From Gordonia sp. SL306 (GTDB lineage Bacteria; Actinomycetota; Actinomycetes; Mycobacteriales; Mycobacteriaceae): a DNA stretch of 64,000 nt. This document shows, one piece after another, positions 16,399 through 22,097 of this stretch. The notes under the pieces are model-generated. The model worked only from the letters and a program-made list of their open reading frames with translations, was not told the origin of the DNA and did no database searches. Numbering within the stretch: position 1 is the stretch's first letter; every line of letters begins with the position of its first letter. The stretch lies in contig NZ_CP113063.1 in assembly GCF_026625785.1 (NCBI RefSeq), positions 3,100,001 to 3,164,000 on the forward strand, given 5' to 3'. The translations under genes and the position numbers were made by a program.

Positions 16399-17694
16399 AT
16401 GAGCAACGTCGGAAAGCCACGCACCGCCGCGGAGATCCAGCAGGACTGGGACACCAACCCGCGTTGGAAGGGCGTCAAGCGCGATTACACCGCCGAGCAG
16501 GTGGCCGAGCTCCAGGGTTCGGTCGTCGAGGAGCAGACCCTCGCCCGCCGCGGCGCCGAGATCCTCTGGGAGGGCGTCAACGCCGGAGACGGCAGCTACA
16601 TCAACGCGCTCGGCGCGTTGACCGGTAACCAGGCAGTCCAGCAGGTGCGCGCCGGCCTCAAGGCCGTGTACCTGTCGGGTTGGCAGGTCGCAGGTGACGC
16701 GAACCTGTCGGGACACACCTACCCCGATCAGTCGCTGTACCCGGCGAACTCGGTGCCGTCGGTCGTCCGACGCATCAACAATGCGCTCATGCGCGCCGAC
16801 GAGATCGCCCGCGTCGAGGGTGACGACTCGGTGGACAACTGGGTCGTGCCGATCGTGGCCGACGGTGAGGCCGGCTTCGGTGGCGCCCTCAACGTCTACG
16901 AGCTCCAGAAGGCCATGATCGCCGCCGGTGCCGCCGGTACCCACTGGGAGGACCAGCTGGCCTCGGAGAAGAAGTGCGGCCACCTCGGTGGCAAGGTGCT
17001 GATCCCCACCCAGCAGCACGTCCGCACCCTGAACTCGGCCCGCCTCGCCGCGGACGTCGCAGGCACCCCGACGGTCGTCATCGCGCGTACCGACGCCGAG
17101 GCCGCGACCCTCATCACCTCGGATGTCGACGACCGCGACAAGCAGTTCGTCACCGGTGAGCGCACTGCCGAGGGCTACTACCACGTGAAGAACGGCATCG
17201 AGCCGTGCATCGCGCGTGCGAAGTCCTACGCTCCGTACGCCGACATGATCTGGATGGAGACCGGTACCCCGGACCTCGAGCTCGCGCGCAAGTTCGCCGA
17301 GTCGGTCAAGTCGGAGTTCCCGGACCAGCTGCTGTCCTACAACTGCAGCCCGTCGTTCAACTGGAGCAAGCACCTCGACGACAGCACCATCGCCAAGTTC
17401 CAGAACGAGCTGGGCGCCATGGGCTTCACCTTCCAGTTCATCACGCTGGCCGGCTTCCACTCACTCAACTACGGCATGTTCGACCTGGCCTACGGTTACG
17501 CCCGCGAGCAGATGACCGCCTTCGTCGATCTGCAGAACCGCGAGTTCAAGGCCGCCGACGAGCGTGGCTTCACCGCTGTCAAGCACCAGCGCGAGGTCGG
17601 CGCCGGCTACTTCGACAACATCGCCACCACGGTCGACCCGACCAGCTCCACCACTTCGCTGAAGGGTTCGACCGAAGAGGGGCAGTTCCACTGA
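16399..17694 (+). CDS. aceA: Isocitrate lyase
   Basis: A 431-residue enzyme that cleaves isocitrate to succinate and glyoxylate, the first step of the glyoxylate shunt, needed for growth on acetate and fatty acids; mycobacterial enzymes also act as methylisocitrate lyases. The catalytic motif KKCGH is present with Cys193, matching Cys191 of M. tuberculosis Icl1. Other conserved stretches are [13 protein letters not shown] for Mg binding, [18 protein letters not shown] and [19 protein letters not shown]. The ATG at 16399 has an AAGTAGG-like ribosome binding site and gives the family N-terminus. It is preceded by RamB and CRP-type sites and followed by a strong hairpin and fadB2. Confidence 0.97.
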
Positions 17695-17837: not shown

Positions 17838-18722
17838 ATGGCAACCGAAAAGATCTCCCGCGTCGGCGTCATCGGCGCCGGTCAGATGGGTGCCGGCATC
17901 GCCGAGGTGTGCGCTCGCGCGCATGCGGACGTCCTTGTCTACGAGTCAACGCGCGAACTCGCTGCGGCCGGTCGTGCCCGAATCCTGCGGTCGCTCGATC
18001 GTGGCGTCTCCAGCGGGAAGCTGACCGAGCGTGAGCGCGAGCAGGCTGCCTGGCGCCTCCGGTTCACCTCCGATCTCGGCGACTTCGCCGATCGTCAGCT
18101 CGTCTGCGAGGCGGTCGTCGAGGACGAAGCGGTCAAGACCGAGATCTTCAAGGAACTCGACAAGGTCGTCACCGACCCGAACGCGGTGCTGGCGTCCAAC
18201 ACCTCGTCGATCCCGATCATGAAGCTGGGCATGGCCACCGCCAATGCCCACCGAGTGATCGGCATGCACTTTTTCAACCCGGTGCCCGTGCTCCCGCTGG
18301 TCGAGCTCGTCACCACTCTGATGACCACGCCGGAGGTCACCGAGCGCGCCGAGGCCTTCGCCCACGACATCCTGGGCAAGCAGGTCGTACGCTCGGCCGA
18401 TCGCTCCGGGTTCGTCGTCAACGCACTGCTCGTGCCGTATCTGCTCTCGGCCATTCGCATGGTGGAGAGCGGCTTCGCCACCGTCGAGGACATCGACAAG
18501 GCGATGGTGCTCGGATGTGCCCACCCCATGGGCCCGCTGAAGCTCACCGACCTCGTGGGCCTCGACACCGTGAAGGCCATCGCGGACAAGATGTACGAGG
18601 AGTTCAAGGAGCCGCTCTATTCGCCGCCGCCGCTGTTGCTGCGCATGGTGGAGGCTGGACGCCTCGGCAAGAAGGCCGGGCACGGCTTCTACCAATATGG
18701 CGAGAACGGCGCGAACAAGTAA
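17838..18722 (+). CDS. fadB2: 3-hydroxybutyryl-CoA dehydrogenase
   Basis: A 294-residue NAD(P)-dependent dehydrogenase oxidising (S)-3-hydroxyacyl-CoA to 3-ketoacyl-CoA. The N-terminal Rossmann motif is VGVIGAGQMGAGIAEV; the active-site segment HRVIGMHFFNPVPVLPLVELV contains the catalytic histidine; the C-terminal dimerisation domain ends GRLGKKAGHGFYQY. It matches the size and order of Rv0468, next to isocitrate lyase in M. tuberculosis. GAGGAG lies just before the ATG at 17838. It belongs functionally with aceA in short-chain fatty-acid use. Confidence 0.94.
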   Translation: MATEKISRVGVIGAGQMGAGIAEVCARAHADVLVYESTRELAAAGRARILRSLDRGVSSGKLTEREREQAAWRLRFTSDLGDFADRQLVCEAVVEDEAVKTEIFKELDKVVTDPNAVLASNTSSIPIMKLGMATANAHRVIGMHFFNPVPVLPLVELVTTLMTTPEVTERAEAFAHDILGKQVVRSADRSGFVVNALLVPYLLSAIRMVESGFATVEDIDKAMVLGCAHPMGPLKLTDLVGLDTVKAIADKMYEEFKEPLYSPPPLLLRMVEAGRLGKKAGHGFYQYGENGANK

Positions 18723-18803: not shown

Positions 18804-21131
18804 ATGACTAGCTCGACGCAGGAGATCGAATACGGATCGTCGATCCTGGGTTACCCTCGTATCGGCGCCCGCCGCGAGCTCAAGAAGGCGCTGGAGGATT
18901 ACTGGCATCAGGGCAGTTCGCTCGACCAGCTGCTCGCCGCCGGCCGGGAGATCGGCGACGGGATGTGGCGTGAACTCGCCGCCACCGGGCTCGAGCAGGT
19001 GCCCGGCAACATCTTCTCGTTCTACGACCACGTACTCGACAACGCGCTGCTGTTCGGTGCGGTACCCGCACGGTTCGAACCGTTGCGCGCCGGCCTCGCA
19101 CCGCTCGACCACTACTTCGCGATGGCACGCGGCACACCCGATTTCCCGCCGTTGGAGCTGGTGAAGTTCTTCAACACGAACTACCACTACCGGCAGCCGG
19201 AGATCGGTGTTGACACCGAGTTCTCGCTGACCGCGGCCCCGGAGTTCGCGCAACGGTTGCTGGACGAACACCGGCGTGCGAGCGCCGACGGAATCGAGTT
19301 GCGCCCGGTGATCCTCGGGCCGGTGAGCCTGTTGCTCCTGTCGAAGCCTGCGCCGGATGCGCCGGCGGATTTCCGACCACTCGATCGCCTCGATGATCTG
19401 TTACCCGCCTACGTCGACCTGTTGGAACGACTTGCCAAGCAGAACTGCAAGTGTGTCCAGCTCGATGAGCCGGCGTTCACCAGTGATCGGTCCGATGCCG
19501 AACTCGACTTGCTCGACCACGCCTATACGCAGCTGTCCCATGCGGGGCTGCGCCCGCGGTTGCTGGTCACGGGTCAGTACGGGGATTTCGGTGCGGCACT
19601 GCCGATCCTGGCGCGGACCCAGGTGGAGGCGATCGGCGTCGATCTGGTCAGCGAGCCGATGTCGGCAGCTGCGCTGGCGAAGGTCCCCGGGCTCAAGCGC
19701 AAGCGTCTGTATGCCGGCGTCATCGACGGGCGCAATGTGTGGAAAGCCGCCAAGGGCGGCAAGCTCGACTATCTGCTGGAGATCAAGAAGCACATCCCCG
19801 ACATCGTCGTCTCCACATCTTGCACACTGATGCATGTTCCGGTCGACAAGCTGATCGAGCCCGACATCCCCGGTGACGTCGCCGACCGATTGTCGTTCGC
19901 GAAGCAGAAGGTCGGTGAGGTGGTGGCGCTCGCGAAGGCCATCGCCGACGGTGCCCCCGAACACTGGTACACGCGACCTACGAAGGTCGACTTCAAGCTG
20001 AAACATGATGTACGGCAACGAGTTGCCAACATCCGTCCAGACCAACGCGAGCGTGCGCCGTACATCGAACGCAAGAAGGCGCAGGACAAGGCCCTTGGTC
20101 TGCCGATGGTGCCGACGTGCACCCTCGGCTCGTTTCCGCAGACCAGGGATGTCCAGCTGGCCCGCTACTACTACGGCCAGGGCCGGCTCGGCTGGGACGA
20201 CTACGCCGACCGCCTCAAGGAGGAGATCAGACGGGTCGTCGAATTGCAGGAGGACATCGGACTCGACGTGCTGGTGCACGGCGAACCCGAGCGCAACGAC
20301 ATGATCCAGTACTTCGCCGAGTTGATGGACGGCTACGCGTTCACCCACATGGGTTGGGTCCAGGTGTACGGCTCGAGATGCGTCCGGCCGCCGATCCTCT
20401 ACGGGGACATCAAACGTCGCGGACCGATGACGGTCGAGTGGATCACCTACGCGCAGTCGCTGACCGACAAACCGGTCAAGGCGATCCTGACCGGTCCGGT
20501 CACCATGCTCGCCCGTTCGTACGTACGCCAGGACCAGCCGCTGCATGAGACCGTCGAGCAGTTGGCGCTGGCGGTGCGTGACGAGGTGGCAGATCTGGAG
20601 AGGGCGGGGATCCGGATCATCCAGGTCGACGAGCCGTCGATCCGTGAACTCCTGCCTTTGCGAGAGCGGGGACGTGAGGGCTACCTCGACTGGGCGGTGG
20701 CGGCGTTCAAGCTCGCCGTCGGTGGTGCCAAGCCGGCCACCCAGATCCACACACACCTCGGCTATTCGTCCATCGCGCAGGTCGTCGAGGCGTTCGACGC
20801 CTTGGATGCGGACGTGACCTCGATCGTCGCGACCCGGTCGATCGATTGGGTGCTCGACGAACTTGCCAAGCGCGGCACGGCGATCCAGCGAGGCGTGGGT
20901 CCGGGCGTGTACGAGAGCCGGAGTGCGGCGATCCCCGACATCGACGAGATCGATGCGCGAATTCGACGCGCAACGAGCGCGATCGATCCGAAACGACTGT
21001 GGGTCAATCCCGATGGCGGTCTGAAGACGCGGCACTATTGGCAGCTCGAACCGTCGTTGCGCAACATGGTCGCCGCCGCTCGGCGCGAACGGCGGCGCAT
21101 CGCCGCGACGCAGACCGGCTCCGGCGACTGA
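18804..21131 (+). CDS. MetE homologue (cobalamin-independent methionine synthase fold) lacking zinc ligands
   Basis: A 775-residue two-domain protein, the normal length of MetE, which transfers a methyl group from 5-methyl-tetrahydropteroyl-polyglutamate to homocysteine. The N-terminal half has SSILGYPRIGARRELKKAL and TNYHYRQPEI; the catalytic half keeps TLGSFPQTRD, VHGEPERNDM, KPVKAILTGPVTM and QVDEPSIRE. The zinc site is not conserved: HTHLGYS keeps His651 but has Gly653 where MetE has Cys; SIVATRS has Val675 where MetE has Glu; NPDGGLKTR has Gly738 where MetE has Cys. In E. coli those ligands are His641, Cys643, Glu665 and Cys726. The reading frame is otherwise intact, so this may be a MetE paralogue with a changed reaction. 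The 81-base leader leaves no room for a cobalamin riboswitch. Confidence 0.88.
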   Translation: MTSSTQEIEYGSSILGYPRIGARRELKKALEDYWHQGSSLDQLLAAGREIGDGMWRELAATGLEQVPGNIFSFYDHVLDNALLFGAVPARFEPLRAGLAPLDHYFAMARGTPDFPPLELVKFFNTNYHYRQPEIGVDTEFSLTAAPEFAQRLLDEHRRASADGIELRPVILGPVSLLLLSKPAPDAPADFRPLDRLDDLLPAYVDLLERLAKQNCKCVQLDEPAFTSDRSDAELDLLDHAYTQLSHAGLRPRLLVTGQYGDFGAALPILARTQVEAIGVDLVSEPMSAAALAKVPGLKRKRLYAGVIDGRNVWKAAKGGKLDYLLEIKKHIPDIVVSTSCTLMHVPVDKLIEPDIPGDVADRLSFAKQKVGEVVALAKAIADGAPEHWYTRPTKVDFKLKHDVRQRVANIRPDQRERAPYIERKKAQDKALGLPMVPTCTLGSFPQTRDVQLARYYYGQGRLGWDDYADRLKEEIRRVVELQEDIGLDVLVHGEPERNDMIQYFAELMDGYAFTHMGWVQVYGSRCVRPPILYGDIKRRGPMTVEWITYAQSLTDKPVKAILTGPVTMLARSYVRQDQPLHETVEQLALAVRDEVADLERAGIRIIQVDEPSIRELLPLRERGREGYLDWAVAAFKLAVGGAKPATQIHTHLGYSSIAQVVEAFDALDADVTSIVATRSIDWVLDELAKRGTAIQRGVGPGVYESRSAAIPDIDEIDARIRRATSAIDPKRLWVNPDGGLKTRHYWQLEPSLRNMVAAARRERRRIAATQTGSGD

Positions 21132-21220: not shown

Positions 21221-21371
21221 GGGAGATGGAACCAAGTAAATGGCCCCGATGCGCCATCAACTGCAACGGCGTTGTCGAGTGATCCGAGACCGTTGACCAT
21301 TCGACAGTATTTGTGCCACGGCGTATTTGGTGACCACACAATCTCAAATCACAACTCATGAGGAGTTCGCT

Positions 21372-22097
21372 GTGAGTGAATCCACACGCACGCTGGCCAA
21401 TCCGATCTATGCGGCCGTGGGAGCAGGCGACTATGTCGTCACCCAGTTCAACGACATCATCTCGCAGCTGCGCGAGCGCACCGAGTCCGCGTCGGAGAAT
21501 GCTCAGGCGCGCTTCGAGGAGACCCGCGGCACCGCCGCGGCACGCTTCGAGGAGACCAAGACCCGGATCGGGTCGCTGCCCGAGGACGTTCCGGCCGGCT
21601 TCGAGGAGCTGCGCGGCAAGATCAGCTCTGACGAGCTGCGCAAGGCCGCCGAGGGATACCTCGAGTCCGCCACCGAGTTCTACAACTCGCTCGCCGAGCG
21701 TGGCGAGGAGACGGTCGAGCGTCTTCGTCAGCAGCCGGTCGTCCAGGAGAACCTCGACCGTGCGGGCAAGGTCTACAGCGACGCCGTCGACCTGACCGAG
21801 GATACCCTCGGTGTGGTGTCGTCGCAGACGCGCGTCGTCGGTGAGCGCGCCGCCAAATTGGCCGGCCGGGTGAGCAGCCGGGTCGAGGACGTTGCCGTCG
21901 ACATCGAAGAGGCCGGCCAGACCATCAAGTCCAGTACCGCCGACGCCGCGGATGAGATCGGCGGCGCCGCAGGGACTGTCGAGGCCAAGGGTCGTACCGC
22001 CAACGCGTCGCCGGCGAAGAAGATCGCCGCTGCCAAGAAGGCGCCGGCAAAGAAGGCACCCGCCAAGAAGGCACCTGCCAAGAAGGCCGCCAACTAG
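21372..22097 (+). CDS. hbhA: Heparin-binding hemagglutinin-like protein, copy 1
   Basis: A 241-residue protein with the HbhA layout: a short N-terminal segment (PIYAAVGAGDYVVTQFNDII), a long charged coiled-coil (about residues 30-150) with SDELRKAAEGYLESATEFYN and SQTRVVGERAAKLAG as in M. tuberculosis HbhA, and a C-terminal tail of Lys/Ala/Pro repeats (KKAPAKKAPAKKAPAKK). In M. tuberculosis the lysine tail binds heparan sulfate and the protein is surface-associated; related proteins attach to lipid inclusions. The GTG at 21372 is chosen because AGGAG lies seven bases before it. Compared with copy 2 it has a longer region between coil and tail and a shorter tail. A perfect bidirectional terminator follows. 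Confidence 0.85.
   Translation: MSESTRTLANPIYAAVGAGDYVVTQFNDIISQLRERTESASENAQARFEETRGTAAARFEETKTRIGSLPEDVPAGFEELRGKISSDELRKAAEGYLESATEFYNSLAERGEETVERLRQQPVVQENLDRAGKVYSDAVDLTEDTLGVVSSQTRVVGERAAKLAGRVSSRVEDVAVDIEEAGQTIKSSTADAADEIGGAAGTVEAKGRTANASPAKKIAAAKKAPAKKAPAKKAPAKKAAN

Follow-up and report, generated by a model that had tools for sequence, protein, structure and literature searches.

A zinc-less paralogue of the methionine synthase MetE in Gordonia sp. SL306 and its relatives, with a likely change of function

MetE is known from the textbooks as a zinc enzyme, and automatic annotation propagates its name. A 64,000-nucleotide stretch of Gordonia sp. SL306 (NZ_CP113063.1, positions 3,100,001 to 3,164,000; hereafter the window) carries a full-length MetE homologue in which three of the four zinc ligands are replaced, and the question raised by this locus is whether such a protein still makes methionine. 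A sequence-only reading of the window had noted the loss, proposed a changed function, and suggested an alignment with relatives, a comparison of nonsynonymous and synonymous substitution rates (dN/dS) and a search for a second, canonical metE or metH. Our analysis indicates that ordinary methionine synthesis is probably not the task of the zinc-less MetE. As to what it does instead, we see about an even chance that it is a repurposed, metal-free MetE paralogue which, at least in Rhodococcus, is part of the sulfur-starvation response.

The gene (18804..21131, + strand) starts with ATG, has no internal stop and encodes 775 amino acids (P0001). Pfam places Meth_synt_1 at residues 12-330 and Meth_synt_2 at 437-760, i.e. 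the two-barrel architecture of full-length MetE, and the solved MetE chain 1u1h aligns to residues 12-768 with 621 bits. The zinc ligands H, C, E and C of the solved chains 1u1h, 4ztx and 3pph fall on H651, G653, V675 and G738 of the window protein, which thus lacks the His-Cys-Glu-Cys set of MetE. H651 (CAC, 20754..20756, +; Escherichia coli His641) is the sole ligand kept, and is His in all 112 members of the clade described below. Cys643 is replaced by G653 (GGC, 20760..20762, +), Glu665 by V675 (GTC, 20826..20828, +; V in 110 and I in 2 clade members) and Cys726 by G738 (GGC, 21015..21017, +; G in 111, F in 1). None of the 112 possesses C-E-C. The reported loss of the zinc site in a full-length homologue is therefore real, and the same loss recurs in 112 distinct sequences.

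The proposed alignment comprised 172 distinct full-length homologues, after open reading frames shorter than 700 amino acids (7 fragments) and duplicates had been dropped. Residues 675 and 653 split it into 112 zinc-less sequences (V/I at 675) and 60 canonical ones with H-C-E-C, with none in between; sequences fetched later, such as L197-L202, stand outside the 112. The loss is thus common to 112 of the 172 homologues. Of these 112, only 62 have Gly at position 653, the others having T (22), A (12), P (9), S (5) or N (2), but never Cys. Two single-base changes from TGC to GGC, as the sequence-only reading had it, agree with the codons found here, but the loss goes back further, and residue 653 is varied across the clade. 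A recent single-base loss confined to this genome is rejected for these reasons, and so is a sequencing error or chance, as the identical loss occurs in 112 distinct full-length sequences from several genera.

Identity to the window protein ranges from 57 to 100% in the zinc-less group and from 45 to 54% in the HCEC group. The edge parting 25 sampled zinc-less from the 60 canonical sequences has a support of 1.0 and a length of 0.55 substitutions per site. Judged by sequence, the zinc-less group is a monophyletic, conserved MetE paralogue clade, found here in one actinobacterial family. The best 80 loci of a scan of named genomes (63-80% identity) belong to Williamsia, Rhodococcus, Nocardia, Hoyosella, Lolliginicoccus, Skermania, Aldersonia and Smaragdicoccus, besides some metagenome-assembled genomes. 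Among the matches listed for 394 genomes across the class, full-length ones of at least 57% identity come from the window's own family only, and all 26 loci fetched from outside the family possess HCEC. Within the window's genus, the gene is present at 78% identity or more in 7 of 59 genomes. A further congener (G013) retains only a 3' remnant (residues 687-775 at 82%) between fadB2 and an hbhA-like gene, a position which indicates that the gene was once present there and then lost. With this remnant at the same place, a recent horizontal arrival in the window genome is rejected. Spread on plasmids is rejected as well: among 72,556 plasmid records, 114 reach E 1e-50 or better, and the single match at 60-80% identity is a 2.66-Mb Nocardia farcinica replicon.

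Over 38 between-genus pairs from 11 genomes holding both genes (further fetched genomes with both were left out), the zinc-less proteins are on average 65.2% identical and the canonical ones 66.0%, the zinc-less value being higher in 16 of the 38. In the eight pairs of smallest dS of each group, dN/dS is 0.011-0.152 (zinc-less) and 0.055-0.291 (canonical); the all-pair medians, which include nearly saturated pairs, are 0.256 and 0.39. The zinc-less gene is constrained as strongly as canonical MetE. The earlier argument that an intact frame of 775 codons speaks against random decay is borne out by this purifying selection, evident in the close pairs, and by a rate equal to that of canonical MetE.

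The active site differs beyond the zinc ligands, as judged from columns that are at least 90% conserved in each group yet differ between the 112 zinc-less and the 60 canonical sequences. The pterin-stacking Trp (Thermotoga maritima Trp539), present in 60/60 canonical sequences, is replaced by R571 (20514..20516, +; R in 107, F in 5 of 112). The His of the DIHS motif, which we take to be the proton donor of E. coli MetE and which is likewise present in 60/60, is replaced by R706 (20919..20921, +; R in 110, H in 2). New invariants, each in 112/112, are the pair R130-Q131 (19191..19196, +; L/I-V in canonical MetE), W682 (20847..20849, +; Glu in 57 of the 60 canonical sequences), C217 (Trp in canonical MetE), Y259 (Phe), Y303 (Val) and E704 (Asp). 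Column 121 (T. maritima Lys104) is Lys in all 60 canonical sequences, and Arg in 81, Lys in 28 and another residue in 3 of the clade, with K121 in the window protein. According to the part of PMC539065 available to us, Trp539 of T. maritima MetE stacks on the pterin and Lys104 bonds its O4; the T. maritima residues were placed by motif, Trp539 being eight residues past Thr531 of TGPVT. In five Hoyosella/Lolliginicoccus sequences F571 is paired with T615 instead of E615, i.e. the acid is lost, and this pairing suggests that the pterin site as such has fallen out of use.

Other parts of the substrate-binding apparatus are retained. E494 (20283..20285, +) and D609 (20628..20630, +), equivalent to Glu484 and Asp599, which are presumably homocysteine-binding positions of MetE, are kept in 112/112, as is S443 (20130..20132, +), the equivalent of Ser433. 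Ser433 of MetE binds homocysteine (PMC7857596, in the part consulted). Also retained are the basic residues of the groove that takes up the glutamate tail of folate (R24 in 112, K27 in 111, R525 in 112 and R528 in 112 of 112); the corresponding passage of PMC539065 has the first glutamate contacted by Arg15, Lys18, Arg493 and Arg496 in T. maritima. The earlier statement that the methylfolate and substrate segments are kept hence holds for the homocysteine pocket and the glutamate-tail groove, but fails at the stacking Trp, the DIHS His and, in those 81 relatives, Lys104.

Do the carriers depend on this protein for methionine? The window genome has two Meth_synt_2 matches, the zinc-less gene and a protein of 341 amino acids, and no full-length canonical MetE; its one MetH-type match lies within an open frame of 1210 codons. 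The zinc-less gene occurs in 182 of 401 family genomes and is the only MetE-type match reported in 40. Carriers are genomes whose best E is 0 or lies below about 1e-260, taken as zinc-less by this score with the ligands read in part; the two best MetE-type candidates were scored per genome, and partial or weaker matches in the incomplete genomes G146, G271, G280 and G298 were excluded. Rescoring of the single-match genomes G061, G077, G081, G263 and G000 (the window genome) yielded no second full-length MetE. The MetH domain PF02965 is found in 180 of the 182 carriers, part of which were checked by eye against the list of genomes with a match; the two exceptions (G065 and G094) possess a second MetE of canonical type, recognisable by its HCYS and NPDC motifs. 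Going by domain matches, none of the 182 has the zinc-less protein as its only candidate methionine synthase, and no counted carrier would therefore need it for methionine. The search for a second synthase thus turned up a MetH-family match in the window genome, and a MetH-family match or a canonical MetE in each counted carrier.

The 341-amino-acid protein (G000:C1:434752-435696, - strand, 49.8 bits) is encoded far from the window. PF02965 scores about 105-130 bits in the window genome (G000:C1:4993912-4994553) and many listed family genomes, and about 420-440 bits in most of the genomes listed for another group, the genus g29. One carrier (G036, locus L196) has two canonical metE genes in tandem.

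The proposal of a changed function is well supported, because the altered site is fixed clade-wide, catalytic positions have changed along with it, constraint equals that of canonical MetE, and the counted carriers possess a MetH-family match or a canonical MetE; the accompanying statement that the methylfolate segments are kept did not stand as a whole.

A link to sulfur comes from Rhodococcus qingshengii IGTS8. In the part of PMC8557817 at our disposal, the protein IGTS8_peg5907, called MetE, is 190-273-fold higher on dibenzothiophene than on sulfate, belongs to the top ten of the sulfur proteome and contains 2 Cys and 7 Met. The cultures grew on glucose and were supplied with cyanocobalamin (PMC8557817), so that the induction is not explained by acetate growth or lack of B12. 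Going by the gene numbers, the distance from peg5907 is 31 genes to a sulfatase, 33 to a ROK regulator and 41 to MshA (PMC8557817). These features were compared with genus g23, taken for Rhodococcus. Its zinc-less proteins have 1-2 Cys in 10/10 cases, its canonical ones 4-5 in 9/9, and exactly 2 Cys and 7 Met occur in the zinc-less proteins L126 and L128. The distance between mshA and the zinc-less gene is 35.2-37.7 kb in 7/7 g23 genomes searched. By a rough gene count, which misses genes, G230 has the sulfatase at +27, the ROK gene at +28 (both Pfam-confirmed) and mshA at +34. In G295, where the ROK gene was seen as an open reading frame of like sequence, the sulfatase is at +29 and mshA at +38 by the same count. 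On the four g23 contigs holding both metE types (G137, G239, G283, G295), the canonical gene is 0.65-3.7 Mb away from the zinc-less one. IGTS8_peg5907 thus resembles the g23 zinc-less gene in Cys/Met count and gene order, and is most likely a zinc-less MetE itself.

The immediate neighbours are of another kind. Upstream lie fadB2 (3-hydroxybutyryl-CoA dehydrogenase, 17838..18722, +) and, as second conserved neighbour, aceA (isocitrate lyase, 16399..17694, +); directly downstream (21327-22097, +) is a gene for a Lys/Ala-rich, HbhA-like protein, for which we assume the name hbhA. In the 80 named loci, fadB2 is found upstream in 78 and aceA in 75, and the loci lacking them end short upstream, the two without fadB2 being short contigs with 366 and 793 upstream bases. 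The location in an acetate/fatty-acid block, earlier regarded as an oddity, is therefore the standard place of the zinc-less gene. No neighbour besides aceA and fadB2 is general across loci, the next commonest occurring in 34 of 67. The plastic region RGP-Cy15 of Nocardia cyriacigeorgica, as far as PMC3751702 could be consulted, fits an aceA-fadB2-metE locus, because metE and isocitrate lyase share this region. The gap to fadB2 in 127 loci measures up to 20 bp in 19, 21-60 bp in 5, 61-200 bp in 69 and more in 34. Very stable hairpins (z -5.0 to -9.2 against 60 two-base-block shuffles) occupy this gap in L126, L128, L137, L138, L016 (Rhodococcus ruber) and L034 (Aldersonia), but none is present in the 81-nucleotide gap of the window (z -0.5) nor in several other loci. 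No Rfam RNA or known riboswitch matches near the gene at gathering score in 10 loci, and the top pair from a search for upstream dyads falls, by eye, within the end of the fadB2 coding sequence (48 of 119 sequences), the search otherwise yielding variable hairpins.

How might a metal-free MetE work? Loss of the thiolate-activating zinc and of the pterin platform, with the amino-acid pocket kept, tells against the reaction of MetE and in favour of a site remodelled to work without metal. The zinc-thiolate/methylfolate reaction would be beyond such a protein. An amino acid may still be bound in the old homocysteine pocket, and a metal-free reaction could take place in the enlarged cavity of the former zinc and pterin, where arginines now form part of the lining. 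The ligand would probably exceed homocysteine in size or acidity. In Rhodococcus, going by the matching published proteome, the protein would be a very abundant member of the sulfur-starvation response, and its sulfur role may extend beyond Rhodococcus. A more specific version, which we put forward tentatively and would not expect to prevail, is a sulfur-scavenging enzyme, again metal-free, whose pocket holds a larger or acidic sulfur amino acid (thioether, sulfonate) and in which the arginines at the former Trp and DIHS His do the chemistry. If so, the protein that abounds as 'MetE' in sulfur-starved Rhodococcus would be no methionine synthase.

Several observations count against a repurposed enzyme of the sulfur-starvation response. 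The sulfur link comes from one species, in which peg5907 is most likely, judging by gene order and Cys/Met count, the zinc-less protein. Met counts of the g23 zinc-less proteins range from 6 to 10, and five zinc-less proteins of named Rhodococcus outside the g23 set have 4-5 Cys, i.e. low Cys is not general. TauD, encoded between the sulfatase and the ROK gene in IGTS8, was not seen in G230 or G295, and in the window genome 1.7 Mb separate mshA from the zinc-less gene. The aceA-fadB2 neighbours point to acetate and fatty-acid metabolism. Two carriers of genus g8 (L201, L202), outside the 112, have Glu at position 653, where a different metal site is possible. In the accessible text of PMC8557817, peg5907 is presented as a working methionine-forming MetE, and a trend in methyl-tetrahydrofolate-triglutamate is read as support for methionine synthesis. 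Lastly, the sequence data are almost equally compatible with a pseudoenzyme.

This last reading, the main rival although on balance unlikely, is that of a MetE-derived sensor, buffer or partner subunit which would bind a sulfur amino acid and/or polyglutamate and perform no chemistry. Catalytic positions are indeed gone at both half-sites and ligand-recognition residues kept; however, the new invariants and the fixed V and G at two old ligand positions resemble a remodelled rather than a dead site, and an abundance among the top ten of the sulfur proteome (PMC8557817, in part), if it is the same protein, would be unusual for a sensor. That the protein is still a methionine synthase, namely a sulfur-sparing isoform without zinc or with a displaced metal site, appears improbable. 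The retained homocysteine pocket and glutamate-tail groove, the low Cys content in g23 and the induction together with MetY under sulfur starvation (PMC8557817, same part) would suit it, but zinc ligands, stacking Trp and DIHS His are gone (in the five Hoyosella/Lolliginicoccus sequences also the acid at 615), no counted carrier depends on the protein given the MetH-family matches and the two HCEC-type MetE, and with cyanocobalamin in the IGTS8 medium MetH could work.

A role in acetate or fatty-acid metabolism within an aceA-fadB2 unit, e.g. on a glyoxylate- or acyl-CoA-derived substrate and with the sulfur link secondary or particular to Rhodococcus, is more doubtful still: these two genes are the only neighbours kept throughout, and a spacing to fadB2 that, in 19 of 127 loci, does not exceed 20 bp would be compatible with a common unit, but the gap exceeds 60 bp in 103 of the 127, several with a strong hairpin. 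A decaying pseudogene or a sequencing error, finally, is refuted by dN/dS and the rate comparison and retains next to no probability. Loss does happen, as seen from the remnant in G013 and from 51 of 59 genus genomes without a match at that identity, yet the frame in the window is intact, under purifying selection, and evolves at the rate of canonical MetE.

Genes called methionine synthase in Nocardia, Rhodococcus, Williamsia and their relatives should be re-examined, because a conserved paralogue there lacks the zinc site, the folate-stacking residue and the conserved active-site His. If the proteome match is right, the wrong reaction has been assigned to a 190-273-fold-induced protein that is a proposed knock-out target in biodesulfurization. 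With this clade, the conversion of a metalloenzyme barrel to a metal-free one can also be put to the test.

Annotation models differ in their treatment of these proteins. All 11 proteins tested pass NF003556 (cut-off 541), the source of the methionine-synthase name. TIGR01371 (cut-off 929.95) is passed by the five canonical proteins (1020-1101), whereas the window protein (855.5) and five zinc-less relatives (821.8-891.0) remain below. With MetE (1u1h, 4ztx, 3ppf, 1xpg) the zinc-less clade shares the full-length double barrel, the homocysteine pocket, RELK, the R525/R528 groove and overall sequence; it differs in the three absent zinc ligands, the absent stacking Trp and DIHS His, its own invariants and its TIGR01371 score. 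The canonical MetE of the window's genus (HCEC) is 46-51% identical to the window protein and coexists with the zinc-less form in many genomes, but canonical MetE forms a separate clade at a separate locus, with C-E-C, Trp and DIHS His in 60/60. No description of a zinc-less full-length MetE in actinobacteria was recognised in the open-licence literature searched. An N-terminal folate-binding barrel, absent from the core methionine synthases MesA-MesD, is present in the window protein as Meth_synt_1 at 12-330. A precedent for zinc-ligand loss in the MetE superfamily are the MesB-like proteins of Chloroflexales, for which PMC7857596, in the part consulted, gives FSHG/YCDQ/YREQ instead of HCEC and proposes another function. 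These are core single-domain proteins with other replacements, whereas the window clade is full length and possesses H, then G/T/A/P/S/N (Glu in two), V/I and G (F once) at the four ligand positions.
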